Assembly (NCBI RefSeq): GCF_945957465.1 | Contig: NZ_CAMFLC010000001.1 | Span: forward strand, 62,001-126,000 | Origin: an uncultured Leifsonia sp. | GTDB taxonomy: Bacteria > Actinomycetota > Actinomycetes > Actinomycetales > Microbacteriaceae | Direction of reading: 5' to 3' | DNA: 64,000 nucleotides | In this document: positions 5,738 to 28,094 of the stretch, one piece after another | Position numbering within the stretch: position 1 is the first letter of the stretch | How the letters are laid out: each line of letters starts with the position of its first letter | The notes under the pieces: generated by a model | Seen by the model: only the letters and a program-made list of their open reading frames with translations | The model's database searches: none | What the model was told of the DNA's origin: nothing | Made by a program: the position numbers and the translations under genes

Positions 5738-5745
5738 AGTGGCGC

Positions 5746-5802
5746 CGAAGGGCGCGTAATCGCCCCCAAAACTGAGTTTCGGGGGCGATTACGCGCCCTT
5801 CG
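5746..5802. repeat. 57-bp near-perfect intergenic palindrome
   Basis: Arms of 22 bp match perfectly (5746-5767 with 5781-5802); the 13-nt centre adds a further 5-bp pairing (AAACT/AGTTT) after one mismatch. It fills the gap between the convergent asparaginase and potC genes, leaving 8 and 17 nt to the stop codons. It probably acts as a two-way terminator, though without a U tract. Confidence 0.85.
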
Positions 5803-5819
5803 AGCGGTCCGCCGGGATG

Positions 5820-11458: not shown

Positions 11459-11471
11459 CCGCAGCACGTCC

Positions 11472-11510
11472 GACTCCTCCGTCTGCCGCTCGACCGGCGG
11501 CGGAGGGGTC
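11472..11510. terminator. Terminator-like hairpin after ald
   Basis: GACTCCTCCG (11472-11481) pairs with CGGAGGGGTC (11501-11510) with one mismatch, and inner TGCCG/CGGCG bases extend the stem. A short T run follows near 11516. It lies 14 nt after the ald stop, between converging genes. Confidence 0.6.
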
Positions 11511-11578
11511 CTGCGTTTCAGGCGTTCGCGGCGCGGTCGGTCAGCGCCCGATGCCGCGGGGCCGGCTGATGCGCACGA

Positions 11579-12166
11579 TCAGCTGACGTCGAACCACTGG
11601 TCGCCGATGTCGACGCGGGTCCCCCGGCCGACACGGTAGCGCCTCCCGGCCTCGCACTGCCGGGCGAGCCCGCCGAGCGGGCGGGCGACGGTGCCGTTGC
11701 CCGAATACCGGTCGCAGATCCAGAGATCGTCGCCTTCGAGCCCGAACTCGAGGTGGGTCTTCGAGACGCTGCGGGCCGGGTCCGAGATCGCGACGAGCTG
11801 GTCGACGTGCTCGCCCGGCTGGGTGATCGGCCGTCTGCCGATGAGACCGCTTCCGTACACCTCGACGGACTCGCCGGTCGAAAAACTCAGCCGGTACGTG
11901 CGTGTGCGCACAACAGGTGGAGCGGCCTCGATCGGGACGATGTCGATGGCCTCGGTCGGTGGGAGGCCGTCCTCGTCGACCAGTGCGTCGCCGGGGAACC
12001 GTCCCGCCACCGCCGGCTTCGCCAGCGGCGGCACGATCGAGGTGTCCGACGGCCGCGAATCCGCGACCTCCGGCGGCCGCACGCGCGACGCCGTCACCGA
12101 GCTCCCGCAGTTTCCGCAGAACAGCGTCCCCTCGGAGAGCGCCGCTCCGCACACCCGGCATCTCAT
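11579..12166 (-). CDS. Zinc-ribbon plus FHA domain protein
   Basis: A 195-residue cytosolic phosphothreonine-reader. The N-terminus (MRCRVCGAAL then CGNCG) is a four-cysteine zinc ribbon. A Pro-rich linker follows, then an FHA domain from about residue 95 with the conserved GRRP, SVSKTH and SGNGT elements that bind pThr. The ATG at 12166 overlaps the preceding transglutaminase-fold gene by ATGA. It is the last gene of the eight-gene minus-strand cluster that contains a Ser/Thr kinase and a PP2C phosphatase, so it may read phosphorylation of one of its neighbours (inference). Confidence 0.88.
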   Translation of the reverse strand: MRCRVCGAALSEGTLFCGNCGSSVTASRVRPPEVADSRPSDTSIVPPLAKPAVAGRFPGDALVDEDGLPPTEAIDIVPIEAAPPVVRTRTYRLSFSTGESVEVYGSGLIGRRPITQPGEHVDQLVAISDPARSVSKTHLEFGLEGDDLWICDRYSGNGTVARPLGGLARQCEAGRRYRVGRGTRVDIGDQWFDVS

Positions 12167-14475
12167 CGCCTGTTCGTCCTCTCTCGCGTCCTTCCACGGT
12201 AGCCGAGTGACCGCAGCGAGACGGCCGCCAACAGTCGCTTCCACCGCGTGTCGCGTCGATCCAGCTGGGCGCGGAGGTCGTCGACCGCCTTCCACACCGT
12301 GTCCGCTTCGGCCGCGGTCGGCGCAACCGGGCTGAAGACCGCACGGTCGGCGACGTTCGCGAGCGCCGCAGCCCGCGTGCCGCCGATCGTGGTGGCGAAC
12401 TCCACGCGCGTGGCCGCCGGCGGCGGATCGTACCCGTGGTCCACGGCCGCGTCCGCGAACTCGCGCCAGCCGCCGACGATCCGGTCGGCGGCGGTCGGCG
12501 CCGATCTCCGGAGCGAGCGACGCCTCCACTTGGCGGCGATGACCGCCAGGAACGGCGCCGCGAGCACTGCGAGTACGAGCAGCGTCCAGCCGACGGCGAT
12601 CAGCACCGCCAGAATGGTCTCGAGGACCGGGTTCGGCGCCTGCTGCGGCGTCGAGTCGACCTGAGCCTGCGGCGGTTCCTCGTTCTGCTGCGGGCTCTCG
12701 TCGACCGGAGGCTGCACGTTGGTCTGCGGGCGGGAGATCTCGGTCGGCTGCTCCGGCTGGTTAGGCGGCACAGGCCGCACGGGCGGTGTGGGGTCGACGG
12801 TGACCCAGCCGGTCGTGGTCTGCACTTCGATCCAGGCCGAGGCGTCGGAGCCGAGGAAGGTGACGACGCCGCCGGACGCGTCCTTCGGAGCGACGAACCC
12901 CATCGCGACGCGGGCGGGGAACCCGAGTTGACGCGCCATGAGGGCCGCCGTCACCGCGTACTGCTCCTGGTCCCCCAGCATCGGCACGTTCGTCAGTAGT
13001 TCCGTGATGCGGTCCGCGCCGTGGCCCGACCGGCTCGCGGGCTCGTCCTTCCCGACGCCGTGACTGATGTAGCCGTCGGTCTGAAGACCCTGGATCGCGG
13101 CAGCCAGCTTAGCCCCGGCACTGGTGACGCCCGCCGTGTACTTCTGCAGCGTGGACTGGAGCTCGTCGGGGATCACCGCGGGTCGGGGCACGGTGTCGGA
13201 GCCGGGCTGGACCGTCTTCAGCTGCGCCACGGCGAGCGTGGGCAGGCTGACCGAGTCCGCCACATAGGAATCGCCGTCCCGCAGCGGAGCCATGACCGCA
13301 CCCGTTCCGGTGACGTCGTTGTAGAAGAAGGCTCCGGAGAGGGCCGAACCGTGACTTCCGAGGAACTGGATCTGCTCCAGCTGCCCGGTGCCGGGCACCC
13401 AAGGACCGCGGTAACCGCGCACGGTCACCGTCAGCTGCGTCGGCGTGCCGTTCGTCTCGGACTGGTCGAGCCGGTAGGGCAACCGGGTGAACGCACCGGA
13501 GGCGCTCGTGACGGCCGCACTTCCCACCGAGTAGGTCACGCCGTCGTACGTGTCGAGCGTTGCGATGCGAATCCGGCGATCGGCCGGCAGCCCGCTCACG
13601 CTGAGCATGGGATCCGACGCCGACGCCGGCTCGAAGTAAGAGCGGAATCCCGTGAGCGGACTCGGATAGGCGCGAGGGTCGAAGGGCTGCTCGACCGCCG
13701 TCCGCACCACCTGCCGGTCGGACGGGGGCGGCATCAGCGCCGTGGCCGAGATGCCGACCACGGCAGCGCCCGCGAGCATCACGGTCGCGCCGGTCGCGGT
13801 GAGCACCGCCGTCGAGCTGCGCTCCCTGCGCGTCTCGACGGTCAGGCCGCTCTGCGCGCGCAGGGCGCGCACAGCGGCCGTGCGCCGCCGGAGCCGGAGA
13901 CGGATGTTCCAGACGAGCACCAGCGCGAACAGCCCCAGCACGAGCCACAGCGGCACCGGCGCGGTCGCCGGGCCGAAGGCGATCCCGGCCACCAGCACCA
14001 CGACAGCGGGTACACCGGAGAGTTCGGGCAGCGACGAGCGCAAGGCGATGGTCGTCGTGATCACGCTCGCCAGCAGCACCAGGATGAAGGCGGGTACGAG
14101 GAGCGCCTGATACGAGCCGACCGGAACGGAGATGGTCACCAACTGCTTCCACGACAGCCAGGTGCCCTCGAGGAGGTCGAAGAACCCCTGAACGGTCGGC
14201 AGGAGACCTCCGGCCGTCGACTCCCCCGGCACCGCCAGCTGCACGCCGGTCGCCAGGTACGTCACGAGAACGACACCGGCCACGACGATGCTGGGCCAAC
14301 GGAACGTCGCGCCCAGCACGGCGATCGCGGTGCCGAGCACGATCGTCAGCACCAGCATCGTCACGAAGGCGGGCGACTGATAGACGGGCCAGAACGACCA
14401 CGCCGCCAGCGCCACCGCGGCCATCGCCAACGCGATGTCGGCCACGGCCGATCGCCACGCCACGCGCCCGATCAT
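12163..14475 (-). CDS. Membrane transglutaminase-fold protein (TgpA-like), likely catalytically inactive
   Basis: A 770-residue protein with about seven N-terminal membrane helices, a large extracytoplasmic transglutaminase-like domain, a Pro/Gln-rich linker and one late membrane helix (around residue 640) before a basic cytoplasmic tail. It resembles TgpA-type proteins found beside MoxR and DUF58 genes. In active members the core has a catalytic Cys in a G-x-C-E-x-F/Y-A motif and a His before AWxE. Here these read GDQEQYA (Q503) and DASAWIEV (S546); only the Asp (D561 in VDPTPP) remains. It overlaps DUF58 upstream and the FHA gene downstream by ATGA. A binding or scaffold role is inferred. 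Confidence 0.85.
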   Translation of the reverse strand: MIGRVAWRSAVADIALAMAAVALAAWSFWPVYQSPAFVTMLVLTIVLGTAIAVLGATFRWPSIVVAGVVLVTYLATGVQLAVPGESTAGGLLPTVQGFFDLLEGTWLSWKQLVTISVPVGSYQALLVPAFILVLLASVITTTIALRSSLPELSGVPAVVVLVAGIAFGPATAPVPLWLVLGLFALVLVWNIRLRLRRRTAAVRALRAQSGLTVETRRERSSTAVLTATGATVMLAGAAVVGISATALMPPPSDRQVVRTAVEQPFDPRAYPSPLTGFRSYFEPASASDPMLSVSGLPADRRIRIATLDTYDGVTYSVGSAAVTSASGAFTRLPYRLDQSETNGTPTQLTVTVRGYRGPWVPGTGQLEQIQFLGSHGSALSGAFFYNDVTGTGAVMAPLRDGDSYVADSVSLPTLAVAQLKTVQPGSDTVPRPAVIPDELQSTLQKYTAGVTSAGAKLAAAIQGLQTDGYISHGVGKDEPASRSGHGADRITELLTNVPMLGDQEQYAVTAALMARQLGFPARVAMGFVAPKDASGGVVTFLGSDASAWIEVQTTTGWVTVDPTPPVRPVPPNQPEQPTEISRPQTNVQPPVDESPQQNEEPPQAQVDSTPQQAPNPVLETILAVLIAVGWTLLVLAVLAAPFLAVIAAKWRRRSLRRSAPTAADRIVGGWREFADAAVDHGYDPPPAATRVEFATTIGGTRAAALANVADRAVFSPVAPTAAEADTVWKAVDDLRAQLDRRDTRWKRLLAAVSLRSLGYRGRTRERTNRR

Positions 14476-15815
14476 GTCGCGAGCCGCTTCGCGAGACTGC
14501 GCTGGAGGTCCTCCAGATAGCCGATGGTGAGCACGCTGAGGTCCGCGACCCGGCGCAGCGTCGGCACGGCGCCCTCGTCGCAGACGATGGCCACCACGTC
14601 GACGCCCAGCGGGAAGTGGGCGGCAGCGGAGCGCAACTGCGTCGCCGTCACCGTCGACCCGCACACGAGGAAGACGATCGACGTCCCCGCGGCGTCCTCG
14701 CTCGCGACCTGGGCCAACTCGGGCAGTCGCAGCGCCGCCTCCGCCATCTCCACCCCGGCCAGGTCGTCGAGCAGGCGGCCCCTGCCGATCGTGCTCAGCC
14801 GTCGGGCGCTGAACACGACCCGCTTGGCGAACTCCGGGGTCTTCGCGCTCGCCACCACCGACACCGTGCGGGAGTCCAGCATGGCACGCACACCGAGCGA
14901 ACCGGTCGCGCTCACCGCGAGCTCGAACTCCTCGTCGCTGGCGTAGTCCGCCTCGGACAGACTCAGGGCGACCAGCAGGTGGCTGCGCCGGGTCTCCTCG
15001 AACTGGCGCACCATATAGCTGCCGGTCTTCGCGGTGCTCTTCCAGTGGATGTTGCGGCGCTCGTCGCCCGGCATGTATTCGCGCAGCGCGTGGAAGGCGA
15101 CGTCGCTCGCGGTCAGGTCGCGCGTCGGCGCGCCCTCCAGGTCGCGCACGAACCCGGTGCTCATGCTCGGAATCGCGATGATGCGCGGATGCACGAACAG
15201 GTCCAGCGAGTCGGCCCACACCATCTCGCGGCGCAGCAGGCCGATGGGATCGGCGCGCACCGTTCGTACCGGACCGATCGGGACGATTCCCCGTCGGCTG
15301 GTCGGCACGACGAAGACGTCGGAGTGCTCCTCGCCGCTCTGCAGGGCGGGAGCGGCGAACTCGGCGAGCCCGGCGCCCACCGGCACCTCCACCCGCACCC
15401 CCGGCAGGCGCCGGCGCGTCGGGTTGCGCACCAGCACCTCTCCGGGGGCTCGGTCGCCCACCACAACGCGGTTCGTCGGAAGGCTGAGCCCGACGTCGTA
15501 GGCGATCCGGCCGACCAGATACAGCGAGGCGATCGCCAGCAGCGCGGCCGCGGCCCAGCCAGCCACGACGGCTTCCGTCCAGCCGAGCACGTAGCCGGCC
15601 GCGAGCGCGAGCACGGTCACTGCCACCATCGACCAGCCGAGCGCGGTGATCACCGCGCCGAGCACACGCGCAGCGGTCGCGATGACCCGGCCGACCGCCG
15701 CACTGGTGCGCACGAACCAGACGATCGCGTCGGCGAGCAGCCCGTCACGCTCGCCGACGATGCGGGCGCGCGCGTTGGTGAGCTCGACCTGGGTGCGGCT
15801 GACGGTGCTGGTCAC
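14472..15815 (-). CDS. DUF58 domain membrane protein
   Basis: A 447-residue protein that pairs with MoxR ATPases across bacteria. Two membrane helices lie at about residues 40-105, followed by an extracytoplasmic-to-cytosolic body with the DUF58 signature REYMPGDERRNIHWKSTAK near residue 247 and a von Willebrand-A-like C-terminal half. The GTG at 15815 overlaps the MoxR stop and the gene's own stop overlaps the next start, so MoxR, DUF58 and the transglutaminase-fold protein are made in a coupled series. DUF58 proteins are thought to be MoxR clients or adaptors; the mechanism is unknown. Confidence 0.9.
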   Translation of the reverse strand: MTSTVSRTQVELTNARARIVGERDGLLADAIVWFVRTSAAVGRVIATAARVLGAVITALGWSMVAVTVLALAAGYVLGWTEAVVAGWAAAALLAIASLYLVGRIAYDVGLSLPTNRVVVGDRAPGEVLVRNPTRRRLPGVRVEVPVGAGLAEFAAPALQSGEEHSDVFVVPTSRRGIVPIGPVRTVRADPIGLLRREMVWADSLDLFVHPRIIAIPSMSTGFVRDLEGAPTRDLTASDVAFHALREYMPGDERRNIHWKSTAKTGSYMVRQFEETRRSHLLVALSLSEADYASDEEFELAVSATGSLGVRAMLDSRTVSVVASAKTPEFAKRVVFSARRLSTIGRGRLLDDLAGVEMAEAALRLPELAQVASEDAAGTSIVFLVCGSTVTATQLRSAAAHFPLGVDVVAIVCDEGAVPTLRRVADLSVLTIGYLEDLQRSLAKRLAT

Positions 15816-16783
15816 ACGGCGGCCCGATCGCTCGGCGGCGGCACCTCGATCAGCAGCTGGCCGACCACGCTGGAGGCCGTCACACCTTCGAACTCCGCTT
15901 CGGGATCGAGCACCAGGCGGTGCGCGAGCACAGGCTCCGCGAGAGTCTTCACGTCGTCCGGCGTGACGTAGTAGCGGCCGGACGACGCGGCGAGCGTCTT
16001 CGCCGCGCGGACCAGGGCCAGCGCTCCCCGCACGCTCACGCCCAGGCGGATCTCGTCCGCCGACCGGCTCGCGTCCACCAACCGCGAGACGTAGTCGTTG
16101 ATCGACGGGTCGACGTGGACACCGCGCGCCATATCGGCCATCTCGACGACGGTCTCGGCCGAGATCACCTCAGGTACGACGATGTCGTGGGCGCGTCGTT
16201 CCGCCCCCTCGAGGATGCGCAGCGTCGCCTCATGGTCCGGGTATCCGATCGACGCCTTCATCAGGAAGCGGTCGAGCTGCGCCTCGGGCAGCCGGTAGGT
16301 TCCCGCCTGCTCGATGGGGTTCTGCGTCGCGATCACCATGAAGGGCTCGCCCACGGTGTGACGGACGCCGTCGACGGTGACCTGCTGCTCCTCCATGACC
16401 TCCAGCAGGGCCGACTGGGTCTTCGGGGACGCACGGTTGATCTCGTCGGCGAGGACGATGTTGGCGAAGACCGGGCCGCGGTGGAACTCGAACGCCCCCG
16501 TGCGCTGGTCGTAGATGTTCACGCCGGTGATGTCGCCGGGCAAGAGGTCCGGCGTGAACTGCACACGGTTGGTCGTGCCGCGCACGCTCTCGGCCATCGC
16601 CCGCGCGAGCGAGGTCTTGCCCGTTCCCGGAAAGTCTTCCAGCAGCAGGTGCCCCTCGCTGAGCAGAGCGGTGAGGGCGAGCCGGATGACGTGCGACTTG
16701 CCCAGGAGGACCCGGTCGATGTTCTGCACGAGACGGTCGAACACGCCCGAGAACCAGCCGGCCTGCTCAGGGGTCATCGTCAT
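15812..16783 (-). CDS. MoxR-type AAA+ ATPase
   Basis: A 323-residue AAA+ chaperone-like ATPase. Walker A is FPGTGKTSLAR, Walker B is VLADEINRA, the sensor region is VIATQNPIEQAGTYRLPEAQLDRF and the lid domain ends the protein, all standard for MoxR. The ATG at 16783 has a purine-rich GAGAGG site; the longer open frame upstream is a shadow of the giant gene. It starts 74 nt after the giant Ig-like gene ends, so it may share its transcript. In known systems MoxR proteins remodel partner proteins carrying vWA or DUF58 domains. Confidence 0.93.
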   Translation of the reverse strand: MTMTPEQAGWFSGVFDRLVQNIDRVLLGKSHVIRLALTALLSEGHLLLEDFPGTGKTSLARAMAESVRGTTNRVQFTPDLLPGDITGVNIYDQRTGAFEFHRGPVFANIVLADEINRASPKTQSALLEVMEEQQVTVDGVRHTVGEPFMVIATQNPIEQAGTYRLPEAQLDRFLMKASIGYPDHEATLRILEGAERRAHDIVVPEVISAETVVEMADMARGVHVDPSINDYVSRLVDASRSADEIRLGVSVRGALALVRAAKTLAASSGRYYVTPDDVKTLAEPVLAHRLVLDPEAEFEGVTASSVVGQLLIEVPPPSDRAAV

Positions 16784-16857
16784 GCTGTGGCCTCTCTCGG
16801 GGTGCGTGAGCAGCGCTGCGCCGGTGCGCGCGCCGTCCTCAGTATGCCGTTCCCCGC

Positions 16858-19800
16858 TCATTGCATGCCTGAGGCCGGGTACGGTGTGGAATACGTGTCG
16901 CCTCCGACGCGCACCGTCACGGTGAGCACGGGGTTCGCGGCCCCGGCCGGAGCCTGGCACGTCGCGGTCTGCCCGGCCGGCGGCATCGGCGCCGACACGC
17001 CGGTGACGCAGCTGTACGTGACCAGCGTGTACCCGGAGCCAGTGGGCCAGCTCGTCCAGCTGAACGTGCTGGTCGCCGGGTCGTACCGCTGCCCGTCGAT
17101 CGCCGTGCTCACGGCGACCCCCATCCGCGTGCTGTAGTTCTGCGGCGAGCAGAGCTGGGAGCCGTCGGGATAGGTCTCGCAGATGCTGGTGACGCTCAAC
17201 GTCAGGCCGGTTCCGTAGTGCGCCCCGTTGCCTCCCGCGACCATCCCGCTGGTGCCCGGGAGCTGTCCGTTCTCGACCACGCCGTTGTCGCCGATGAGCT
17301 GGTAGTTGACGATCGGGCTCGATCCGCTGCCGTTCTGATAGTCGACCGAGGCCTGGAAGTCCCACGTGTCCGACAGGTTCTGCACCGGGCCGCTGATCCT
17401 CACGCTGCGGACCGCTCCCGGCTGCAGACGCTGCGTCGCCGACACGACGGCGCTCGGCGTGCAGCCCTGACCGTTGTAGGCGTACACCACGAAGTTGTAG
17501 CTCTGGTTGGGACGCAGCCCCGAGAAGGTCACCTGGCCGCCCTGAACGCGTTTGAAGGTCGAGGACTCGGGATCGGCGTGCAGGACCGGGTTTCCCGTCT
17601 CCACACCGGTGACACTGCACCCGGGCTGCGCACCGCCCTGGAAGACGCCGGCGAAGTAGTCGGTGATCGCCTTCCCGTTCGGGCCGAAGACGTTCGACCA
17701 GGTCAGCGTCGCGCTGGAGCCGTCGCTGTTGTCCGGGCTCGCGACAGGGGCGGCGCCGGTGAGCACGGGAGCGCCGGCCGGCACTCCGCTGCCGGAGGTC
17801 TGGTTCCAGGTCGTGCGGCCCTGATAGAAATCGTTGCGGCTCGCCACCGTGAAGCCGATCGCCGCGCCGTTGGCGATGCCGGGGTCGGTCACGTTCAGCG
17901 CATACGTCCCGCCATCGCCCGGACCGACCTGCAGCGCTTTGGTGATGCCGCCCACTGTCACCAGGTACGACGTGATCGGACTGGCCCCCGGGGCATCCGT
18001 CGGCCGGTTCCAGGTGATCCGGAGGCCGTTGTTGAGCGGCGTCGAGCTGACGTTGGCGGGCGCGTTCGGCACCACATCCGACCAGGCCGGCTCGACGTAG
18101 CTCGTGGGATCGGACAGACCGAGCGCGTTGCGCGCGCGCACGGCGAGCAGCACCGCGTTGGCAGGGCCGTTGCCCGGTGTCGTGATCGCGCAGACCGTGG
18201 TCGTGCACTCCGTGGTGCCGAGCGCCGCGCCCGTCGCCGCGCTGCTCACGGTGACCTCGAAACCGGTGATGGGCGAGTTGTTGAATGCTCCCGGCGTCCA
18301 GCTGAGCGTCAGGCTCCGGTCGCCGATGGCCGAGATCTGCACGTTCGAGACGGGGGCCGGCCGATCCTGCACCGAGACCGTCACCGTCCCCCAGGTGTAC
18401 CGATCGGGGTCGCCGGTGGCATCGGCCACCTCGTACTGAAGGGTGGTGTCGGCCGGAGCAGCCGTGCTCGAGACCGTGATCTGCAGGACCGAGTAGTCCG
18501 CGCTCGGCGTGATGGCCACGCCGTCGGGCAGCGAGCCGCCGAGCCCGCGGACCGCGATCACCCGCAGCGGCTTGTTCGGGAACGGGTTGGTCGCCGCGTC
18601 GTTCGCCAGCACGTCGACGGTCGTCGTCTGCCCGCGTGGCGCGATCACGCGGTCGGGCTGCGGGCTCGCCAACGGGCGGGTCGACGGAACGATGTTCAGG
18701 TCGATCCGGCCGGCCTGTCCCGCGTTCACGGCGTCTTTGACACCGATCGAGATCGAGGGCGTGCTCCCCTTCTGCACGCCCGCTCCGACCGAGATCGTCA
18801 GCTTCTGACCCGACAGGGAGAGCGAGACACCGTCCGGCCGGGGGTTCTGGATCGAGTACTCCAGCTCGGACTGGTCCTTCGCATAGGGATAGCTGGTGAG
18901 CTTGGTGAGGTCGACCGTCTTCGACTGTCCCGGCTCGAAATCGATCAGTGCCCCGGTGAACACCGGCGGCTGATTCTCACGCGGCGTCACGTCGATGGGC
19001 AGCACGATCGTCGCGACATTGCCGTTCGGGTCGTTCGCGCCGTTTCCGTCCGTCACCTGGAACGAGATGCTCGCCGGTCCGAAGTAGCGGTTCGACGATG
19101 CGTACTGGAGTGTGTCGGAGCTGACCACCAGGTCGTCGCCGTTCGCGTGGGTGGCGCGCACCGTGGCCGCATCCGTCAGCTTCACCTTGCGGCCGCCGAC
19201 GGCGACGATGTAGTCGTTCAGGTGGATGGTCAGCGTCTTCTCGCTGACCACGCTGAGCTTCGGGGCACCGCGCTTGAGCTGCGGGAGCGCGTCGTCGTAG
19301 CCCGGGAGTCGCACGAAACCGTAGGCGGCGTAGGACTCGTCCTCCGGATTCGCCACCTTGAACGGGATGATCTGGCTCTTGGCCGTGACCGTGACCCGGA
19401 TCCGCTTGCCCGAGGTGACCTGTGCCGTGATGCCGTATCCCGGCACGATCGACAATTTCAGGGACGACACCGGGCCGTCGGCGAAGAACACGTTGGACAG
19501 CGCGTTCACGTCCACCGTGTCGCGGCCCAGGATGTCCGACAGGCCGAGGACGGTGTCGGAGACGACCGGCCGTGCCGGGGGGGCGTTCTTGTCGACGGTC
19601 ACGCGCAGGAACGCCTGGCTGGTGCCGCCGCGCTCGTTCTGGATCGTGTACAGGAAGCCGTACGCCCCTTCCTGCTGCGGCGCCGTCACCACGACGATGT
19701 CGCCCTGGATCTTCGCCTTGGCCTTGCCGTCCAGCGAGGAGACGGCCGTCACGCTCAGCGGGCTGCCGTCCGGGTCGGAGTCGTTGGCGAGCACTTGGAC

Positions 19801-22767
19801 GCTCAGCGTCCTGCCCGGGCGCGTCGTGACGTCGTCCTCGACCGCGACGGGGTTGCGGGCGCCGTCGACTCGCGCCGCGATCCCCACGCGCACCGTCCCG
19901 GTCGCCCTGGCGCCGAGGGCGTCCACCACCGCGTACGTGAACGTGTCGGTGCCGGCCGCGTACTCGCCGGCCTGGAAGTCCATCCAGTCGCTGCCCGATG
20001 CGACGACCGCGCCCTTCTGCGGGTTGGTCTCCTGGCCGATGAACTGCACGGAGTCGCCGTCCGGGTCGATTCCCGACAACGGGATCGTGATCCGCACCGT
20101 GTCGCCGGCCAAGACGCGCGCCGTGACCGTCTTCGGCACGGGCGGATTGTTGGTCGCGACGTCTCGCTCGCGGACGGCGATGCTCACCTCCGCGGTGGCC
20201 CACTGACCGTCGGCCCCGTAGACACGGTAGGCGGCCGTGTAGTTGCCCGGCTTGGACGGCGCGAGGTAGCGCAGATGGTCGCCACTGGCGAACAGCAGGC
20301 CTGCGCCGGCGGGCAGCGGGCTCGCGAGCGTCGGATCGAGGGTCAGCTTGTCGCCGTCCGGCTGCACATCGTTGGCCAGCACCGGGATGTCGACGACATC
20401 GTTCACGCGTACGGCGACCGAGTCGGGCGCTGCGATCGGCGGCTGGTGCACGGTGAGCGGCGGCAGCTGGACGACCGTGACGGTGCCCTCGGTGTCCGCG
20501 AGCCCGTTGCTCAGCCGGTAGTGGAAGTCGACGGGCTCGGTGAGCGGCCGGGTCAGCGAGACGCGCAGGGTGCGCTGCTGGAGCACCTGGACCTTGATCC
20601 CCGACGACACCGTCGGCTCGGTCGCGCCGGTCACCAGGAGCACGCCGCCGGAGGGGTCGATGTCGGTGGAGAGCACATCGACGTCCTGAGTCGACTGCTC
20701 GCGGATGAACGCCGTGTGCGGAACCGCGATCGGAGCCGTCTTGGCGCCGGGCGGGGCTTTCACTTCGACCCGGACGGTGCCGGTCGTCGTGATCACGCCG
20801 TCGGTGACCGAATACTCGATGTTGTGTGTGCCCGCCTGGTCGGACTCGAACCGGAACGTGCCGCCCTGATAGTCCGGCGTGATGGTTGCGTCTGCCTTCG
20901 TCGGCACGGTGCTGAGGCGGACGACACCGTTGCCGCCGCGCACGTGGTCGAGCGGGCGGACGGTCGTCTCCTGGCCTTGGTACGTCACCACGGCGAACGG
21001 GTCGGCGATGATCGGCACCTGGCCGGGCGGCTGGACCGTCACGGCCAGCTGTCCGGTCCCCTCCGCGCGTCCGTCCGAGAGCACCAGCGCCACGTCTTTG
21101 AGGCCGCCGCCTGTGCCGTGGTCGGAGTACGCGACCTGGCCCTGCGGCGTGAACGTGACGGTGTCGGGAGCCGGCACCGTGGCACCCGCGAGATAGAAGG
21201 AATCGCCGTCGGGGTCGTAGCAGTCCCCCGTCACCGCGGTCGTGACGCGACCGCCCGCCTGCACGACGGCCTTGGCCGTGCGCACGCACACGGGAGGCGA
21301 GTTCTCGGAGGGCGAGCGCACCGTCACCGTGACGTGAGCGGTCGCCGTCCCGCCCCGGCCGTCCGAGATCGTGTAGTCGAAACCGATCGATCCCGTCGCG
21401 GTTGCAGGCAGCGAGATCTGCAGCTGCTGATCGGAGTTGGTCAACTCGATCGTCCCCTGGTCGGCCGGGATCGCGGTGAACGAATCGATCGTCAGGACAT
21501 CGCCGTTGGGGTCGTAGTCGTTGAGCAGAACCGGGAGCGGCGAGACGCGCCCGGGTCGGGCACCGAACTGGTCGTTCACGGCGACCGGCGGCTGCTCCTG
21601 CTTCTCGTACTGCGGGGTCGTATCCTGCTTCGACTGGTCGACGAGCTCCTGCGTCGTCTTCTTGGAGACCAGCTCGTCCCAGTTGTCGATCCGCGCGTTC
21701 CCCGACTGCACGGCCCACGACACCCCGGAGCGGGCGTCGTTCAGCACGACGCGATCACGGTTCACCCGGAACGAGAGGACCGCGTTGGCGGGTACCTGGC
21801 TCAGCGTGCTGCGTGTCCCTGCAGCCGACGACGTGCAGCTGCGCCACGCCGAGCCCGAATTCCATGCCGCGTAGACGCAGCCGGCCACGCTCACCGGCGC
21901 TGCCGGCGCACCCGACACGGTACCCAGCACCCGCGACGGCTTCGATCCGTCCAGCGGCACGCGGACGAGACCGGATGAGGTCGCGATCCATACGGCCGTC
22001 CCGACGGACGACGGAGACTGCAAGACGGCGTCCGTGTCTGAGCCGAGCACCCCCGACAGACCGATCGCGCCGTCCGACGTCCACAGCATCTTCTCGTCCG
22101 GATCGAAGAGCACCCACCGGCCGCCGGCCGACGTGATCTGCACGTGCGTGCCGTCGCCCCGGGTGGCGACCTTGGCCGTCGAACTCGCCGGCTGCTGGCC
22201 GCCGAGATCGACGCGCACCATCGTGCGCGTGCCGGGCTGATAGAGGAACAGCACTCCGGACGGGTCCATCGCGGCGACGGCGCGGCCGCCGAGGTCCATC
22301 GTCGCGGCCGAGCCGGAGTTGTACTGCTCGAGTTGGTCCATCGACGTCAGCCACAGCTGGCCGGTCGTCTGGGACAACATCGCTACATGGTTGCCCGACA
22401 CCGCCACTTGCGGCGACCGCGGCGGCAGGGCCACGGACTTCCCCGCCTCGGCCGTCGCCGGATCGACGACGGACGCCGTGTTGGCCTCCTTGTCGAGCAG
22501 GAGGACGTTCTCGCCGTCTTGCACGACGTCGAGAGCCTCCCCCGTGCCCGCGACGATGGAGTTCAGCGAGTCGATCTCGGTGTTGGCCCGGCCGAGCGCC
22601 TTCTTGGTGTCGCTCGCCACCCAGACCGCGGCGTCGTTGAGCTGGAGGTGCTGCGCGCTGTAACCGCCCGACACCACGGCGAGCGTCGTCACCAGCGCGG
22701 CGACGACCGTTCCGCTCAGCGCCGTGGCGGCGATCGACTTGTGGGCGAGCAGCCACGACCGGATCAT
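16858..22767 (-). CDS. Giant membrane-anchored Ig-like and fibronectin III repeat protein
   Basis: A 1969-residue surface protein. One membrane helix lies at residues 11-33. The next 370 residues contain repeated short beta motifs and look like a beta-propeller-type head. From about residue 400 come at least nine Ig-like/cadherin-like repeats marked by NDYDPNGDVLT, DPDGDSFYL, ANDVQPDGDKLTL and ANDSDPDGSPLSV, which resemble calcium-binding loops. The C-terminal part has two or three FN3-like units (for example VSNVQISAIGDRSLTLSWTPG and APANVSSTP) and several cysteines. The ATG at 22767 overlaps the kinase stop by ATGA. No sortase motif is seen. Adhesion or cell-envelope sensing is inferred; no enzyme domain is recognised. 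Confidence 0.9.
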   Translation of the reverse strand: MIRSWLLAHKSIAATALSGTVVAALVTTLAVVSGGYSAQHLQLNDAAVWVASDTKKALGRANTEIDSLNSIVAGTGEALDVVQDGENVLLLDKEANTASVVDPATAEAGKSVALPPRSPQVAVSGNHVAMLSQTTGQLWLTSMDQLEQYNSGSAATMDLGGRAVAAMDPSGVLFLYQPGTRTMVRVDLGGQQPASSTAKVATRGDGTHVQITSAGGRWVLFDPDEKMLWTSDGAIGLSGVLGSDTDAVLQSPSSVGTAVWIATSSGLVRVPLDGSKPSRVLGTVSGAPAAPVSVAGCVYAAWNSGSAWRSCTSSAAGTRSTLSQVPANAVLSFRVNRDRVVLNDARSGVSWAVQSGNARIDNWDELVSKKTTQELVDQSKQDTTPQYEKQEQPPVAVNDQFGARPGRVSPLPVLLNDYDPNGDVLTIDSFTAIPADQGTIELTNSDQQLQISLPATATGSIGFDYTISDGRGGTATAHVTVTVRSPSENSPPVCVRTAKAVVQAGGRVTTAVTGDCYDPDGDSFYLAGATVPAPDTVTFTPQGQVAYSDHGTGGGLKDVALVLSDGRAEGTGQLAVTVQPPGQVPIIADPFAVVTYQGQETTVRPLDHVRGGNGVVRLSTVPTKADATITPDYQGGTFRFESDQAGTHNIEYSVTDGVITTTGTVRVEVKAPPGAKTAPIAVPHTAFIREQSTQDVDVLSTDIDPSGGVLLVTGATEPTVSSGIKVQVLQQRTLRVSLTRPLTEPVDFHYRLSNGLADTEGTVTVVQLPPLTVHQPPIAAPDSVAVRVNDVVDIPVLANDVQPDGDKLTLDPTLASPLPAGAGLLFASGDHLRYLAPSKPGNYTAAYRVYGADGQWATAEVSIAVRERDVATNNPPVPKTVTARVLAGDTVRITIPLSGIDPDGDSVQFIGQETNPQKGAVVASGSDWMDFQAGEYAAGTDTFTYAVVDALGARATGTVRVGIAARVDGARNPVAVEDDVTTRPGRTLSVQVLANDSDPDGSPLSVTAVSSLDGKAKAKIQGDIVVVTAPQQEGAYGFLYTIQNERGGTSQAFLRVTVDKNAPPARPVVSDTVLGLSDILGRDTVDVNALSNVFFADGPVSSLKLSIVPGYGITAQVTSGKRIRVTVTAKSQIIPFKVANPEDESYAAYGFVRLPGYDDALPQLKRGAPKLSVVSEKTLTIHLNDYIVAVGGRKVKLTDAATVRATHANGDDLVVSSDTLQYASSNRYFGPASISFQVTDGNGANDPNGNVATIVLPIDVTPRENQPPVFTGALIDFEPGQSKTVDLTKLTSYPYAKDQSELEYSIQNPRPDGVSLSLSGQKLTISVGAGVQKGSTPSISIGVKDAVNAGQAGRIDLNIVPSTRPLASPQPDRVIAPRGQTTTVDVLANDAATNPFPNKPLRVIAVRGLGGSLPDGVAITPSADYSVLQITVSSTAAPADTTLQYEVADATGDPDRYTWGTVTVSVQDRPAPVSNVQISAIGDRSLTLSWTPGAFNNSPITGFEVTVSSAATGAALGTTECTTTVCAITTPGNGPANAVLLAVRARNALGLSDPTSYVEPAWSDVVPNAPANVSSTPLNNGLRITWNRPTDAPGASPITSYLVTVGGITKALQVGPGDGGTYALNVTDPGIANGAAIGFTVASRNDFYQGRTTWNQTSGSGVPAGAPVLTGAAPVASPDNSDGSSATLTWSNVFGPNGKAITDYFAGVFQGGAQPGCSVTGVETGNPVLHADPESSTFKRVQGGQVTFSGLRPNQSYNFVVYAYNGQGCTPSAVVSATQRLQPGAVRSVRISGPVQNLSDTWDFQASVDYQNGSGSSPIVNYQLIGDNGVVENGQLPGTSGMVAGGNGAHYGTGLTLSVTSICETYPDGSQLCSPQNYSTRMGVAVSTAIDGQRYDPATSTFSWTSWPTGSGYTLVTYSCVTGVSAPMPPAGQTATCQAPAGAANPVLTVTVRVGGDTYSTPYPASGMQ

Positions 22768-24194
22768 GGCGATGCGGTCCTCTGCACGCACTTCTGCCCG
22801 CTCGGCGAACCGGTCTTGCCGTCGCGGTTGACCGTGACGGTGACGCACACGGTCTGGCCCGGCTTGGCGTCGACTCGGAACTCGGTCGCGCGCTGGCTGC
22901 TCGGCGGCTGATCGTCGACCGTGACCTGATAGCTGTCCGTGCTCTCGATGCCCGGGTCGCTCCAGGTGAAGACGATGGTGCCGGCCGAGACTCGTCCACT
23001 CAGGTCGCGCACGGTCGGGATGTCGTTGGACGCACCGGCGCGCACGAGCACGACCCCGGCCGTCACGGCGAGGACCACCACCAGCAGCGCGCAGGCCACC
23101 AGGGAGAGCACGAGGGCTCGGGACACCCGCGAGGGCGCGGGCGGCGGTGCGCTGGGCGAGCTGCCCACGCTCTCGCGCACCATGGTGCGCGTCGGCGTCC
23201 GGCTGGTCGCCGCGGAGGCCGCCGACGGCTTGCGCCGACGGCGCCGGGCGCCGGGGTCGACAGCGACCACGCCCTTGACCCTGGTGCGCTCTTCGGGGTC
23301 GTCGGCCGTCGCGAGAGCCCAGTCGTCCATGGCGACCTCGATGGGCGTCTGCGGGAGCCCGAGTTCGGCCTCCACCGACTGCAGTTCGCGGATCAGCTCC
23401 AGCACGCTGCGCTGACGGCTCGAGGGCTTGCGCGACATCGAGCGCATCAGGATCTGCTCGAGTCGCGCCGGTACGTCCGCCCGGCCGATCGGCTGCGGGC
23501 GGCCCTTGGTGATGCGCTGGATGAGCTCGGCTGACGTGTTCTCTTTGCCCGGCACCTCGAACGGCGACCGGCCGGCGAGCAGGGAGTACACCGTCGCGCC
23601 GATGGACCAGACCTCGCTGGCGATGGTTCCGCTGGTCTCGTCGAGCAGGACCTCGGGCGCCGACCACGGGATCGACAGCCCGATCGCCTCGGTGACATCG
23701 GCCTCGCTGAGGGTGGCGGCGATGCCGAAGTCGCTCAGCACCGGGTGGCCGTACGCGGTGGTGAGGATGTTCGACGGCTTGATGTCGCGGTGCAGCACGC
23801 CAGCGCGATGGGCGGTCTCGACGGCGCTCGCGATCCGCACGCCGATGCTCAGGACTTCGGGAACCGGCAGCGGGTCCATGCGGTAGCGCTGCCCGATCGC
23901 CGACGAACACAGCTCCATCACCAGGTAGGGACGGCCATCGGCGGAGACGCTCGCCTGATAGACGGTGAGGATGGACGGGTGGGTGCTCAGCTGGGCCATC
24001 AGATTGGCCTCGGCCTGGAACATCTGCTTGACCTGGCTGGTGACCACTTCGGCGAGCATCACCTTGACCGCCACCTGACGGCGCGGCATGTTCTGTTCGT
24101 ACAGGAACACGTCCGCGAAGCCGCCCGAACCGAGCACCCGGACGTACGAGAAGCCAGGCAGGTTCGGCGGCTGTGAAGGCAAGCGCCGAGCCAC
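22764..24194 (-). CDS. Transmembrane Ser/Thr protein kinase with FN3-like ectodomain
   Basis: A 476-residue PknB-type kinase. The catalytic domain (1-280) has the glycine loop GSGGFADV, VAVK lysine K44, HRDIKPSN with D137, DFG at 155-157 and APE in WSAPEVL, so it should be active. A basic, Ser/Thr-rich juxtamembrane region leads to one membrane helix (about 355-380), and the outer part (about 390-476) looks like a single FN3-type domain with TFTWSDPG-like strands. PASTA repeats are absent. GTG at 24194 has a GGGAGG-type site. It is coupled by ATGA to the giant Ig/FN3 gene, the likely partner (inference). Confidence 0.93.
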   Translation of the reverse strand: MARRLPSQPPNLPGFSYVRVLGSGGFADVFLYEQNMPRRQVAVKVMLAEVVTSQVKQMFQAEANLMAQLSTHPSILTVYQASVSADGRPYLVMELCSSAIGQRYRMDPLPVPEVLSIGVRIASAVETAHRAGVLHRDIKPSNILTTAYGHPVLSDFGIAATLSEADVTEAIGLSIPWSAPEVLLDETSGTIASEVWSIGATVYSLLAGRSPFEVPGKENTSAELIQRITKGRPQPIGRADVPARLEQILMRSMSRKPSSRQRSVLELIRELQSVEAELGLPQTPIEVAMDDWALATADDPEERTRVKGVVAVDPGARRRRRKPSAASAATSRTPTRTMVRESVGSSPSAPPPAPSRVSRALVLSLVACALLVVVLAVTAGVVLVRAGASNDIPTVRDLSGRVSAGTIVFTWSDPGIESTDSYQVTVDDQPPSSQRATEFRVDAKPGQTVCVTVTVNRDGKTGSPSGQKCVQRTASP

Positions 24195-24248
24195 GCAGCT
24201 CCTCCCGTCGTCGGCCGTACACCATCGCGGCGGCGAAGGCGTTTCCCA

Positions 24249-24254
24249 ATTGTA
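24249..24254 (-). promoter_or_regulatory. Candidate -10 box of the kinase gene
   Basis: TACAAT on the minus strand, five of six bases of the consensus, about 55 nt before the kinase GTG, which has its own ribosome site. The 222-nt gap between phosphatase and kinase makes a separate promoter plausible. No clear -35 box is seen. Confidence 0.4.
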
Positions 24255-24416
24255 GGCAGCGGCTCCAGGCCCTCAGGTGGCCGGACCCGCACTGGGGACA
24301 ACTCCCTTACCCCCAACTCGGGGGGCACTTCGGCGCGCCGTCGCTCATGTGGAGGACTCTCGCGCGAACCGGTCTGCGTGCGTTCCGCGGTGCCTGGAGC
24401 CCTTGTCTGCGACCCG

Positions 24417-25253
24417 TCAGTGCCGGCGCGCGGCTCGGCGCGGGAAACCCTCACGATGCACGCCGCTCTCCGGCGTCGCCAGCACGTCGACGACGACCAC
24501 GGTCACGTTGTCCCGGCCGCCGTTTCCGAGCGCCGCGTCCATCAGCTGCTGCGCGGCGTCGAGCGGGGAGCTTCCCTCGCCGAGGAAGAAGCGGATGCCG
24601 TGCTCGGTCAGCTCCTTCGTGAGCCCGTCGGAGCAGACCAGCAGCCGGGATCCGGCGACGATCGGGAGCAGGAAGTAGTCCGGCACCGGATCCTCGTTGA
24701 AGCCGACGGCTCGGGTGATCACGTTGCTGTGCGGATGGACCTCCGCCTCCTCGGGCGTGATCGCACCGGCGTCGAGCAGCTCCTGCACGATCGAGTGGTC
24801 CACGGTCAGCTGCTCCAGCGTTCCGTCGCGGAAGCTGTAGACGCGCGAATCGCCGATGTTGAACACGAGCCAGTACGGCGCGCCATCCACCAGGGTGAGC
24901 GCGATGCCCGTCACGGTCGTGCCGGTGCCGAGGTCGGTCTGGCCGACCCCGCGGGTCATATCGGCGACCGCGTCGCGGAGCGCGTCGGTCAACGACGTCT
25001 CGCTCACGAAGTCGGCCCTGACCTTCTCGGCGAGCCGCGTCACGACGGCGGTGCTGGCGAAGTCGCCGGCGGTGTGGCCGCCCATGCCGTCGGCGACGGC
25101 GAAGATCGGCGAGCGCGCCAGCAGGCTGTCCTCGTTGACGCTGCGCCGGTATCCCGTGTCGCTGAGCGCAGCCCACGCGAGACTGATGCGCGCATCAGCA
25201 CCGCCCGGGACCACCACGGTGTGGCGACGGTTGGTGCGACCGATCTGGGTCAC
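24417..25253 (-). CDS. PP2C-family Ser/Thr protein phosphatase
   Basis: A 278-residue metal-dependent phosphatase that would reverse the neighbouring kinase. Metal-binding motifs are complete: SVNEDS near residue 37, VADGMGGHTAGD near 52, the GDSRVY strand and the late GGRDNVTVVVVDV. No membrane segment is present. The GTG at 25253 overlaps the upstream FHA gene by GTGA. The next gene, the kinase, begins after a 222-nt gap with its own candidate promoter. Kinase/phosphatase/FHA trios of this kind are common in actinobacteria. Confidence 0.94.
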   Translation of the reverse strand: MTQIGRTNRRHTVVVPGGADARISLAWAALSDTGYRRSVNEDSLLARSPIFAVADGMGGHTAGDFASTAVVTRLAEKVRADFVSETSLTDALRDAVADMTRGVGQTDLGTGTTVTGIALTLVDGAPYWLVFNIGDSRVYSFRDGTLEQLTVDHSIVQELLDAGAITPEEAEVHPHSNVITRAVGFNEDPVPDYFLLPIVAGSRLLVCSDGLTKELTEHGIRFFLGEGSSPLDAAQQLMDAALGNGGRDNVTVVVVDVLATPESGVHREGFPRRAARRH

Positions 25254-26497
25254 TCGCGTCCTTCTTCTCGACGGTCCGCCTCCGAGGCCGACCGAGGGGC
25301 ACCCTCTGCGTCGTCGGCCGGGACGGCGGTGATCTCGATGATATTACCGTCGCCGATGTGCACAACCGTGCCCGAGAGGACCACGGTGGACTCGCCGGGC
25401 CGCAGCCGGGAGGTGTCGCCGTCCGGGCGGACAACGACCGTCCCATTGGTGGAGCGCAGATCGGTGACGACCACGGCGTCCCCCGACTGCTCGATGCGGA
25501 GGTGGGTCGAGGAGACCTCCTGCTCGGGAGACGAGACCGTGACGAGACGCAGCAGCGCGCCGGACTCCACGCGGGGCGGCGCCGGCCGGCGGCCCACCAG
25601 GATCGGCACCTCGAGGCCGATGCTGTCCCCCGGACCGACCCGGACGGCGAACCGCCGGGGAGCGACGACGGGTTCGGGAGCCTCCACGGTCGGCTCCGAG
25701 CGCCCCGCCGGCCGGTCTGTCGCCGCGCCGGGCGTGTCGCGGGACTCCACCGCAGAACGCTGCTCGGTGGCCGTCCCCGGTTCTTCGATGTCGATGGCAC
25801 CGGGGAGTTCGTGCGCGACGGGAACCCGCTGGCCCACCGGCTCGGCCTCCGGCGACTCGGCCCGCTCGGTCGCGCCGTCGTGCCGCGGGAAGAGGCTGGA
25901 GCTCCGAGCCCGGTCGCGGATGATGGTCTCGTCGATGCTCCCCGGCTCGGCCTCGACGCCATCATGCAGGCCCGGATGCCCGGCGGAACGCTCGACACGT
26001 TCGATCGGGCTGCCGGACCAGGTGAGCAGCTCGCCGTCCACGACCCCCAGGCCGAGCGGCAACGATCCGACGGCGATCCGGGCGACGGGTCCGGTCGGCA
26101 GGTCGTCGCCGCCGAGGGCGAGGCCGGTGACGTTGCGGAACTCGGCGAGGACCCAGGGCTGCACGCCGCCGGAGCCGAACCGCCGCGCACCGCCCACCGA
26201 GAACACGTCGAGGACGGCGGATCCGCGGACCACGGCGGTCACCACGATCTCGCCCTGCGCGTTCGGCTCGCCGAGCTCGGCGACGGCGAACGACCGCACG
26301 CTGTCCGGTCCGGCGAGCGGGAACGCTCCCACGACCGACTCGATGGTCGCCAGCTCCGACTCGGCGAGCCACCACACGGCGTCGATGATGCTGTCGGCGG
26401 CCGTGCTCTCCACGCAGGCGACGAATCGCCGCCCTGCGATCAGCAGCCAGCGCGACGGGCCGGCGGTCGGGGCGTACCGCGTGAAGCCGGGAGCCAC
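25250..26497 (-). CDS. FHA domain protein, first gene of the signalling cluster
   Basis: A 415-residue cytosolic protein. The first 200 residues form a beta-rich domain of unknown family (RWLLIAGRRFVACVEST opening). A low-complexity acidic/Pro linker follows, and the C-terminal 120 residues are an FHA domain with LVGRRPAPPR, the SSTH pThr-contact motif and LRSTNGTVVV. The GTG at 26497 has GGAGG 9 nt upstream; a TACACT box lies further upstream near 26570. It is GTGA-coupled to the phosphatase. A role as phospho-reader for the kinase is inferred from context. Confidence 0.88.
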   Translation of the reverse strand: MAPGFTRYAPTAGPSRWLLIAGRRFVACVESTAADSIIDAVWWLAESELATIESVVGAFPLAGPDSVRSFAVAELGEPNAQGEIVVTAVVRGSAVLDVFSVGGARRFGSGGVQPWVLAEFRNVTGLALGGDDLPTGPVARIAVGSLPLGLGVVDGELLTWSGSPIERVERSAGHPGLHDGVEAEPGSIDETIIRDRARSSSLFPRHDGATERAESPEAEPVGQRVPVAHELPGAIDIEEPGTATEQRSAVESRDTPGAATDRPAGRSEPTVEAPEPVVAPRRFAVRVGPGDSIGLEVPILVGRRPAPPRVESGALLRLVTVSSPEQEVSSTHLRIEQSGDAVVVTDLRSTNGTVVVRPDGDTSRLRPGESTVVLSGTVVHIGDGNIIEITAVPADDAEGAPRSASEADRREEGRE

Positions 26498-26578: not shown

Positions 26579-27316
26579 TCAGTCCGCCGGAGGCGCCGCC
26601 ACCAGACGGAAGGGGGTTCCGACGCACCGTACCGCGCCCTCCGCCTCTCCGCCCGCCATGTCTGCCACCGATCCGACCAGCACGGACGGCTCGGTCGACA
26701 CCATCACGCGGCCCCACTCGTTGACCAGGACGACCGGCCGCCCCACCGCCAGCATCGCCGGCAGCAGTTCGCGCTCGAGACGGCGCACGTAGATGTCCAC
26801 GCCGACCACTCCGAGCATCCGTCCGTCGCGCTCGACCGGCGACGTCACCGTCACGATGTAGTCGCACGCGCACAGATGATCGACATAGGGCCCGGTGACG
26901 TGCGTGCGATGCGTCGACAGGGGGATGCTGTACCACTCGAGGGAGTGGAAGTCGCGCAGATAGTCCGAGTACGACCGCGATGCCAGATCCAGCCGGGTGG
27001 GCGCGCTGGTCGCGCCGCCGAGCGGGTTCTCGTCGAGCGGCCCGAGCCACCAGGCGAAGTGCAAGTCCTCGGCTCCCGTGTATTCCGGTGCGGCGACGAA
27101 CCCGGCGCCGACCAGGAGGGGATCGTCTTCGCGCAGCGCGGGGAGCACCAGTGCCTCAACCCGTTCGTCGAGGGCGGTCGTCGTCATCCCGCCGCCTCCG
27201 CCGTCGGCGAGGATCGCGTCCTTCCAGACGGCCAGCCGCTGTCCGAGTTGAGCGAACAGGACACTCACGTGCTCGGCGGCCCTGTCGATCGCGGCGCCGG
27301 CGATGGTCTCAGCCAT
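26579..27316 (-). CDS. Soluble Cache-domain sensor protein
   Basis: A 245-residue protein whose central and C-terminal parts match the PDC/Cache ligand-binding fold: DYLRDFHSLEWYSIPL, a YVDHLCACDYIVTVTSPV strand, then MLGVVGVDIYVRRLERELLP. Cache domains normally face the outside of the membrane in chemoreceptors and kinases, but here no signal peptide or membrane helix is present and no output domain follows. The start overlaps the GntR regulator stop by 8 nt, so the two are translated together. I infer it senses a small carboxylate for the regulator. Family assignment is good, function is open. Confidence 0.8.
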   Translation of the reverse strand: MAETIAGAAIDRAAEHVSVLFAQLGQRLAVWKDAILADGGGGGMTTTALDERVEALVLPALREDDPLLVGAGFVAAPEYTGAEDLHFAWWLGPLDENPLGGATSAPTRLDLASRSYSDYLRDFHSLEWYSIPLSTHRTHVTGPYVDHLCACDYIVTVTSPVERDGRMLGVVGVDIYVRRLERELLPAMLAVGRPVVLVNEWGRVMVSTEPSVLVGSVADMAGGEAEGAVRCVGTPFRLVAAPPAD

Positions 27317-28094
27317 CGATCGTCCCTCCCGTCTCGATCCGCGCCTTCGCCGAGAGCAGCCAGCGCGCCACGCGATCCAGCAGCGCCGTGACCTCGCGGC
27401 GCGCGCGTTCGGCGTCGTTCCCGGCCACCGCAGCGGCGATGGCACCGCTCGCGGCGGACGTCGCCTCGCGCAGTGCGGCATCGCGCATCCCGAGCCACAG
27501 CAGCGGACCGAACTCGGCCTGCAACCGGATCTGCTCGCGCACCAGCCGGGTGGACTGGCTGAGCACGGCGAGTTCGAGCAGAAAGCCTCCCGCGCTCCGT
27601 CGCGCCTGGGCAGGCTCGGTGAAGTCGGCGGCGGCCAGCCAGGCCGCCAGGCGCGCGTCGTCCGCCGGCGTCGACCGTTCGGCCGCCCGGTCGGCGCAGC
27701 CCGCGGCGATCGCCGTCACATACACCGTGAGGTCGCTGAGCTCGACCTGCGAAAGGCCGCGCAGCCGCGTGGCGAGCATCGTCGCGTCGGCGTCGCCCGG
27801 GTGCACGACGAAGCTGCCGCCGTCGCGCCCGCGGCGGGTCTCGACGAGGCCCGCCTCGCGCAGCATCCCGAGACCTTCTCTGGCCGTCACCAGTGCGACG
27901 CGGAACCGCTTGGCCAGATCCGCTTCGCTCGGCAGCCGCTCGCCCGGGATGAGCACCCCGAGCACGATCGCGTCCGCGAGCCGGCGAGCCACCTGCTCCG
28001 CGCGCCCGGCATCGGACAGCTGCGCGAAGACGGCGTCCCGCGCCCCTGGCGCCGGCCGCGTGGTTCGGGCAGCATCGCGGGTGGAGGTGGTCAC
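27309..28094 (-). CDS. GntR/FadR-family transcriptional regulator
   Basis: A 261-residue regulator with an N-terminal winged helix (VARRLADAIVLGVLIPGERLPSEADLAKRF, residues about 32-62) and an FCD ligand-binding domain. FadR-type members sense acyl-CoAs or organic acids. I place the start at the GTG at 28094 because TATCGT, a TANNNT box, ends 6 nt before it; an earlier ATG at 28121 would put the start codon inside an inverted repeat. Divergent from the glutarate-type operon, which it probably controls; co-translated with the Cache protein. Confidence 0.88.
   Translation of the reverse strand: MTTSTRDAARTTRPAPGARDAVFAQLSDAGRAEQVARRLADAIVLGVLIPGERLPSEADLAKRFRVALVTAREGLGMLREAGLVETRRGRDGGSFVVHPGDADATMLATRLRGLSQVELSDLTVYVTAIAAGCADRAAERSTPADDARLAAWLAAADFTEPAQARRSAGGFLLELAVLSQSTRLVREQIRLQAEFGPLLWLGMRDAALREATSAASGAIAAAVAGNDAERARREVTALLDRVARWLLSAKARIETGGTIDG

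Follow-up and report, generated by a model that had tools for sequence, protein, structure and literature searches.

The locus studied here raises the question of what is accomplished by a run of genes in which a Ser/Thr kinase, a phosphatase and FHA-domain proteins are encoded together with a giant surface protein, a MoxR ATPase, a DUF58 protein and a transglutaminase-like protein. ORF calls and Pfam searches verified eight such genes on one strand (-) within positions 11579..26497 of the window, that is, of the whole 64-kb stretch of DNA analysed, which represents positions 62001-126000 of contig C1 in a 4.06-Mb draft genome of 112 contigs.

25250..26497, strand -, FHA-domain protein, 415 aa, opening the cluster (Pfam FHA 1.5e-7, residues 323-382)
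24417..25253, strand -, PP2C-type protein phosphatase, 278 aa (PP2C_2 1.1e-11)
22764..24194, strand -, Ser/Thr protein kinase, 476 aa (Pkinase 7e-39)
16858..22767, strand -, giant surface protein, 1969 aa (Big_9 in 7 stretches 9.5e-71; fn3 in 2 stretches 7.8e-19)
21591..22767, strand -, conserved anchor and propeller module of the giant protein, residues 1-392
15812..16861, strand -, MoxR AAA+ ATPase, 349 aa (AAA_3 5e-63)
14472..15815, strand -, DUF58 protein, 447 aa (DUF58 1.2e-10)
12163..14475, strand -, probable TgpA-type pseudo-transglutaminase (TG), 770 aa (TgpA_N 7.8e-14, Transglut_core 6e-12)
11579..12166, strand -, zinc-ribbon FHA protein, 195 aa, closing the cluster (Zn_Ribbon_1 7e-6; FHA 0.0016)

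Gene organization and setting of the cluster

The ORFs, their order, strand, domains and sizes agree with an earlier note on this DNA, which had also counted 4-nt overlaps at all but two junctions. With the start codons that we chose, on which such overlaps depend, an overlap of exactly 4 nt occurs at six of the seven junctions, FHA/PP2C included, and the correct count is all but one, the exception being the 222-nt gap between the PP2C and kinase genes. The FHA match of the closing protein (19.3 bits) is below the Pfam cut-off of 20.7.

The giant protein comprises an N-terminal anchor helix (residues 14-32, its sole hydrophobic stretch above the hydropathy cut), a beta-propeller (~44-364), an array of Ig/cadherin-like domains and C-terminal FN3 domains. 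Its anchor and propeller module stands alone next to MoxR in two relatives (L054 and L227). Tandem giants precede MoxR in L043 (17-12404) and L223 (2741-15127), and L222 carries an orphan giant (10287-16376) with no MoxR, DUF58 or TG inside its 20 kb. As judged by hydropathy, the kinase consists of a kinase domain, one transmembrane segment (TM; ~363-381) and an external C-terminus of ~95 aa; the latter resembles an FN3 domain by eye and matches no Pfam family, hence FN3 has no Pfam support there. The DUF58 protein, of a vWA-like family, probably has two TMs, also by hydropathy.

The scanned ORFs that flank the cluster are ordinary (alanine dehydrogenase, an ABC transporter with its binding protein, a PDC-sensor protein and an acyl-CoA dehydrogenase). 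The PDC/cache-type sensor protein, which lacks an obvious output domain, is encoded just upstream of the cluster on the same strand (26579-27481). No Rfam match was found in the 64-kb window, and promoter and terminator scans of the window performed no better than those of shuffles. A second, distant full copy of the cluster is present in the source genome (L037, C3:28001-48000, positions 1339-16608); its TG is merely 35% identical to that of the window, and an FHA-like gene separates its kinase and giant genes. About 15 kb from this copy lies a MoxR-DUF58-TG triple with intact Cys-His (L036, C3:8001-28000, positions 4061-8809). Another genome of the same family, G094, has three cluster copies (L040-L042).

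Conservation as one unit and relation to the PFNA operon

Among 49 loci of 14-20 kb, hand-chosen for diversity (36 by TG and 13 by the giant), we found the giant in 49, MoxR in 47, DUF58 in 48, TG in 48, PP2C in 36 and FHA in 42, with giant, MoxR, DUF58 and TG together in 47. The kinase was found in 38, and extra flanking sequence for 10 of the remaining 11 loci revealed nine more, giving 47 of 49. When the giant was the starting point (13 loci hand-picked from 34 giant matches), MoxR, DUF58 and TG accompanied it in 11. The two halves of the run thus do not occur independently, which supports the proposal of the earlier note that the genes encode one machine, and since the set recurs across families, its assembly is not a matter of chance. 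The eight genes almost certainly constitute one homologous, conserved envelope machine of actinobacteria. Its variable part comprises the PP2C and FHA genes, which, like the kinase gene, precede the core in some loci and follow it in others; in some bifidobacteria just the five-gene core was found. One locus of the giant-first selection, L225, contains a cluster without MoxR.

A single TG query matched about 153 of the 297 genomes of the order, in 13 families, at E <= 1e-40 (hand tally), an arbitrary cut that leaves out some divergent clusters (e.g., L219). All 28 genomes of the window's genus have TG, interrupted in two. In G596 and G609, of the same genus, a window-type TG is split into two pieces in different frames, by decay or sequencing error. 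A named scan built on nine related TG sequences gave 79 loci from the best 80 of 455 confirmed matches: 50 of Bifidobacterium by title and 29 others, from Cellulomonas, Actinotalea, Sanguibacter, Jonesia, Georgenia, Pseudactinotalea, Microbacterium, a Herbiconiux bin, and Propionibacteriales and Cellulomonadaceae bins. Giant, MoxR, DUF58 and TG occur together in 76 of the 79 loci from these best 80 matches, the other three (L126, L157 and L177) being incomplete because the record starts before the giant would. A search for further conserved neighbours across 60 loci yielded groups that never exceeded nine loci, mostly among near kin, and did not surface the EssC gene discussed below.

In bifidobacteria, the core of the PFNA operon is described as pkb2, fn3, aaa-atp, duf58 and tgm, with prpC and fha as accessory genes (PMC8430577, PMC6803598, PMC10688814). 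The window cluster likewise encodes a kinase, an FN3/Ig protein of ~2000 aa, MoxR, DUF58 and a transglutaminase-like protein, with PP2C and FHA as accessories, and the core order is identical, on one strand in the window and Bifidobacterium loci alike. The PFNA operon is characterized by an FN3 protein of ~2000 aa with two C-terminal FN3 domains (1,994 aa in B. longum, as printed), and the giant of the window, with 1969 aa and fn3 in two stretches, corresponds to it. Co-transcription is a further trait of PFNA, on which the window sequence bears through its 4-nt overlaps. The window cluster differs from PFNA in having FHA-PP2C before the kinase and the zinc-ribbon FHA gene at its end, and its host belongs to another family (f1) of the same order than Bifidobacteriaceae (f48). 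Family f1 is probably Microbacteriaceae, as its row G239 groups with a named Microbacterium in a quick tree (100). On sequence evidence, the window cluster is homologous to the PFNA operon. The statement of the earlier note that no function is described for this combination was therefore wrong, as the PFNA kinase is reported to phosphorylate the MoxR of its own operon in bifidobacteria (PMC8430577). The published accounts treat PFNA as exclusive to bifidobacteria and regard the tgm product as an enzyme. Contrary to the former, the PFNA-type cluster is not confined to bifidobacteria, and in a quick tree the bifidobacterial TG rows nest inside those of other genera. Missing from the earlier note were the probably dead active site of TG and a type VII secretion ATPase adjoining the clusters of relatives.

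Active-site residues of the cluster proteins

The window TG retains the fold and architecture of TgpA, with about seven N-terminal TMs, an external core, one TM at 624-642 and a cytosolic tail. The Cys-His-acid triad of TgpA transglutaminase is absent from it, the positions being occupied by Gln503 (for the catalytic Cys), Ser546 (for His) and Asp561. All 158 cluster rows have D, S, G, Q, A or E in the Cys column and none has Cys, while Cys and His are both present in 14 of 20 comparison TG rows; in the quick tree the Cys-less cluster TGs fall on one side of a branch (100). Judging from these alignments, the cluster TG is very probably a pseudoenzyme, devoid of the residue that a cysteine enzyme needs.

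Triples of MoxR, DUF58 and TgpA with intact Cys, such as L036 of the source genome, comprise the same three gene families in the same order. None of the 14 comparison loci that keep Cys and His has a giant alongside, and a kinase match within 20 kb occurs in L207 and L211 alone. Cousin loci of the family f24 (L203, L204, L205, L214, L215 and L218) encode a Cys-less TG like that of the window, on a sister branch (96); a PKD-domain protein adjoins TG in L205, L214 and L218, and kinases are present in L205 and L215. Unlike in the window, no Ig/FN3 giant was found in these cousins, with weak signs of a propeller in L204 and L214 (E 4e-9 and 5e-10). In L215 (3-12299), MoxR-DUF58 occurs as two pairs, close to one pseudo-TG and to three Ser/Thr kinase genes.

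In MoxR, all ungapped rows among 105 retain the Walker A and Walker B residues, and in PP2C the Asp residues that were checked are conserved wherever a row has no gap (56-57 of 59). The Asp that is kept by DUF58 controls (19/19) is present in 48 of 155 cluster rows and replaced by Ser285 in the window protein; this loss is partial and therefore carries no weight as an argument. Among 136 FHA domains, which were drawn from ORFs shorter than 1000 aa in the fetched loci, with cluster membership unproven for some and the Arg column not judgeable, the pThr-binding Ser is kept in 135, His in 136 and Asn in 133. The retention of these residues fits FHA proteins that would read a phosphorylation state.

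Linkage to EssC-like ATPase genes and possible functions

An EssC-like gene surfaced when flanks were extended in search of missing kinases. After the kinase gene, relatives encode an FHA-like protein of 230 aa (so judged by eye, with no Pfam match) and an ATPase of 1490 aa that combines FHA and FtsK/SpoIIIE domains. The best NCBIfam match of the latter is EssC (TIGR03928, 522 bits, E 2.9e-156, below the cut-off of 778), its relatives in PDB include YukB and EccC, and its N-terminus is UBL-like by eye. WXG100 and T7SS_signal genes come after EssC in several relatives.

A full-length or nearly full-length orthologue of this ATPase (E = 0) is encoded in 84 of the 297 genomes of the order. Taking the TGs among the matches listed, EssC lies within 25 kb of TG in 49 of the 73 genomes with a TG place, in ten families, always on the same strand (49/49) and downstream in 48, at less than 100 bp in eight and otherwise mostly at 5.5-8.8 kb. 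By chance, with kinship ignored, ~1.3 such cases would be expected, a figure that overstates the significance because the genomes are related. The EssC start codon can overlap the TG stop codon by 4 nt in L053, L054 and L164. In the other 24 of the 73 genomes EssC is away from any TG among the matches listed (ten in f1, five in f53, four each in f58 and f8, one in f7), and a few of these genes may have another TG copy close by outside those matches. Less similar ATPases are near TG in three of the 24 placed, again among the matches listed. Counted by hand, genomes with a strong TG match account for 75 of the 84 EssC-like genes (Fisher p 2e-17, kinship ignored), and an E = 0 EssC is missing from 78 of the ~153 cluster-bearing genomes; of the nine remaining EssC-like genes, in genomes without a strong TG match, at least one (G299) does accompany a cluster. 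Thus, the ATPase is seldom found without the cluster, and the cluster is often found without the ATPase.

No Bifidobacteriaceae genome is among those listed with an E = 0 EssC, three having an ATPase at 34-35%. In the named scan (best 80 of 455 confirmed), an EssC-like gene is absent within the fetched flank from all 50 Bifidobacterium loci and present in L164, L166 and L173 alone of the 29 others, with flanks of up to 10 kb. The 64-kb window contains none; the EssC-like ATPase of the source genome is encoded on a separate 15.8-kb contig (C59, ~4786-9267; L261), and other contigs carry the two cluster copies, each far from a contig end. WXG100 genes of this genome are located on C59 (596-892), C28 and C24, with none in the window. 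No EccB/EccD/EccE or EsaA/EssA/EssB was found among 10 neighbour ORFs scanned, which were picked by length and some of which are perhaps not genes. An EccC-like ATPase is encoded directly upstream of the giant, in the usual place of the kinase, in L101 (14381-18574; f58), where no kinase was found, and, immediately after the cluster and in opposite orientation to it, in L162 (13043-17044) and L178 (14447-18544) of Actinotalea (E ~1e-58). The titles and abstract openings surveyed, with subscription journals mostly outside coverage, do not tie PFNA, MoxR-DUF58 or the giant to type VII secretion (T7SS).

As relatives of the PFNA operon often lie beside type VII secretion genes, the operon may be part of an export apparatus and not an immune sensor. 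Linkage to EssC is not the same as function, and the genomes are related. The reading that we consider most likely, with about an even chance of being correct, is that the cluster serves an EssC-type (type VII-like) export system as envelope platform and phospho-switch. For the cluster family, a role in T7SS is slightly favoured, and for the window copy it falls a little short of even.

Alternatively, the cluster may be a wall module independent of T7SS, in which kinase-controlled MoxR, DUF58 and pseudo-TG assemble or monitor a wall-spanning rod, serving wall integrity, growth or adhesion, with EssC as a frequent neighbour that shares the phospho-switch. The lack of an EssC-like gene in about half of the cluster-bearing genomes (hand tally), the retention of the five-gene core by bifidobacteria with no EssC nearby and the unlinked window copy agree with this possibility, which we regard as plausible and yet rather doubtful, given the same-strand, downstream and sometimes overlapping EssC in ten families and the few EssC-like genes (9/84, at least one with a cluster) outside strong-TG genomes.

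According to the published interpretation, PFNA is a host immune sensor whose kinase and FN3 protein recognize cytokines such as TNF-alpha; a recombinant FN3 fragment is reported to bind TNF-alpha and the operon to be induced by it (PMC8430577, PMC10688814). This interpretation is very unlikely, since the core occurs also in Cellulomonas, Actinotalea, Georgenia, Jonesia, Microbacterium and the window's genus, and the bifidobacterial rows are nested among those of others. These genera are best known from soil, plants and water, although a few species are perhaps host isolates. In gut species, immune sensing may be a derived use. A MoxR-vWA-propeller conflict (defence) system of the type described by Kaur et al. 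2020 is hardly credible, despite the co-occurrence of MoxR, DUF58 and a beta-propeller, the bpMoxR match of the window MoxR (8e-11, weaker than AAA_3) and a review that likens the mycobacterial moxR operon to PFNA and cites that system (PMC12067865), because the propeller sits behind a membrane anchor helix, no Pfam effector domain was found on the vWA or a third component, PADLOC matches the kinase alone, and DUF58 and fn3 are absent from the main text of Kaur et al. (PMC7159879).

If the cluster belongs to an export system, we infer contacts between its parts, a rod across the wall and coupling to secretion. The giant would be held in the membrane by its N-terminus, with the propeller at the outer membrane face and the Ig/FN3 rod spanning the wall. 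The polytopic pseudo-TG, with its dead external domain beside the propeller and its tail in the cytosol, would connect outside with inside, and MoxR and DUF58 would assemble or remodel this link. The kinase may sense the exterior and phosphorylate MoxR and other partners, PP2C may reset phosphorylation, and phosphothreonines may be docking sites for the FHA proteins as well as for the EssC-like ATPase through its FHA domain. Most EssC FHA domains (18-19 of 22) retain the residues for pThr binding, as do the FHA proteins, which makes a switch like that of type VI secretion (T6SS) plausible. The threonine-phosphorylation switch of T6SS consists of PpkA, PppA and Fha1. There, too, a membrane kinase, a PP2C phosphatase and an FHA protein control a secretion machine, although the machine is unrelated; the A. 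tumefaciens case is cited in PMC11217815.

Garrett et al. 2024, who define T7SSc-j, describe for T7SSd of Actinomycetota an FHA-bearing ATPase, a kinase and the 1654-aa Ig-like envelope protein TsdI, which is proposed to cross the envelope and to act as a conduit, and give TsdA, C, D, H and I as the core (PMC11217815). The cluster together with EssC looks like a cousin of T7SSd, both having an EssC-type ATPase with an FHA domain, a kinase in the membrane and an Ig-like envelope protein of very large size. In contrast to TsdI, the giant has no signal peptide with a C-terminal TM by hydropathy, its anchor being N-terminal; the AAA+ and pseudo-TG parts are extra, the ATPase is UBL-like at its N-terminus (by eye), and MoxR, DUF58, transglutaminase and fibronectin are absent from the main text of PMC11217815.

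We tentatively suggest, with somewhat more doubt than confidence, a T7SS subtype of Actinomycetes new to description, which would combine a UBL-FHA-EssC ATPase and WXG100 substrates with a propeller-Ig-FN3 conduit across the wall, a TG-derived membrane adaptor, MoxR-DUF58 as a pair of chaperones and a switch made up of kinase, PP2C and FHA proteins, bifidobacterial PFNA being a derived form with the ATPase lost or replaced. The PFNA "transglutaminase" lacks the residue of a cysteine enzyme, and the distribution of the cluster contradicts the printed claim that PFNA is restricted to bifidobacteria and shaped as an immune receptor. The PFNA-type operon gains a testable role in protein export, which, if true, would provide the parts with which an actinobacterial T7SS crosses the wall and would equip type VII secretion with a phospho-switch resembling that of T6SS.
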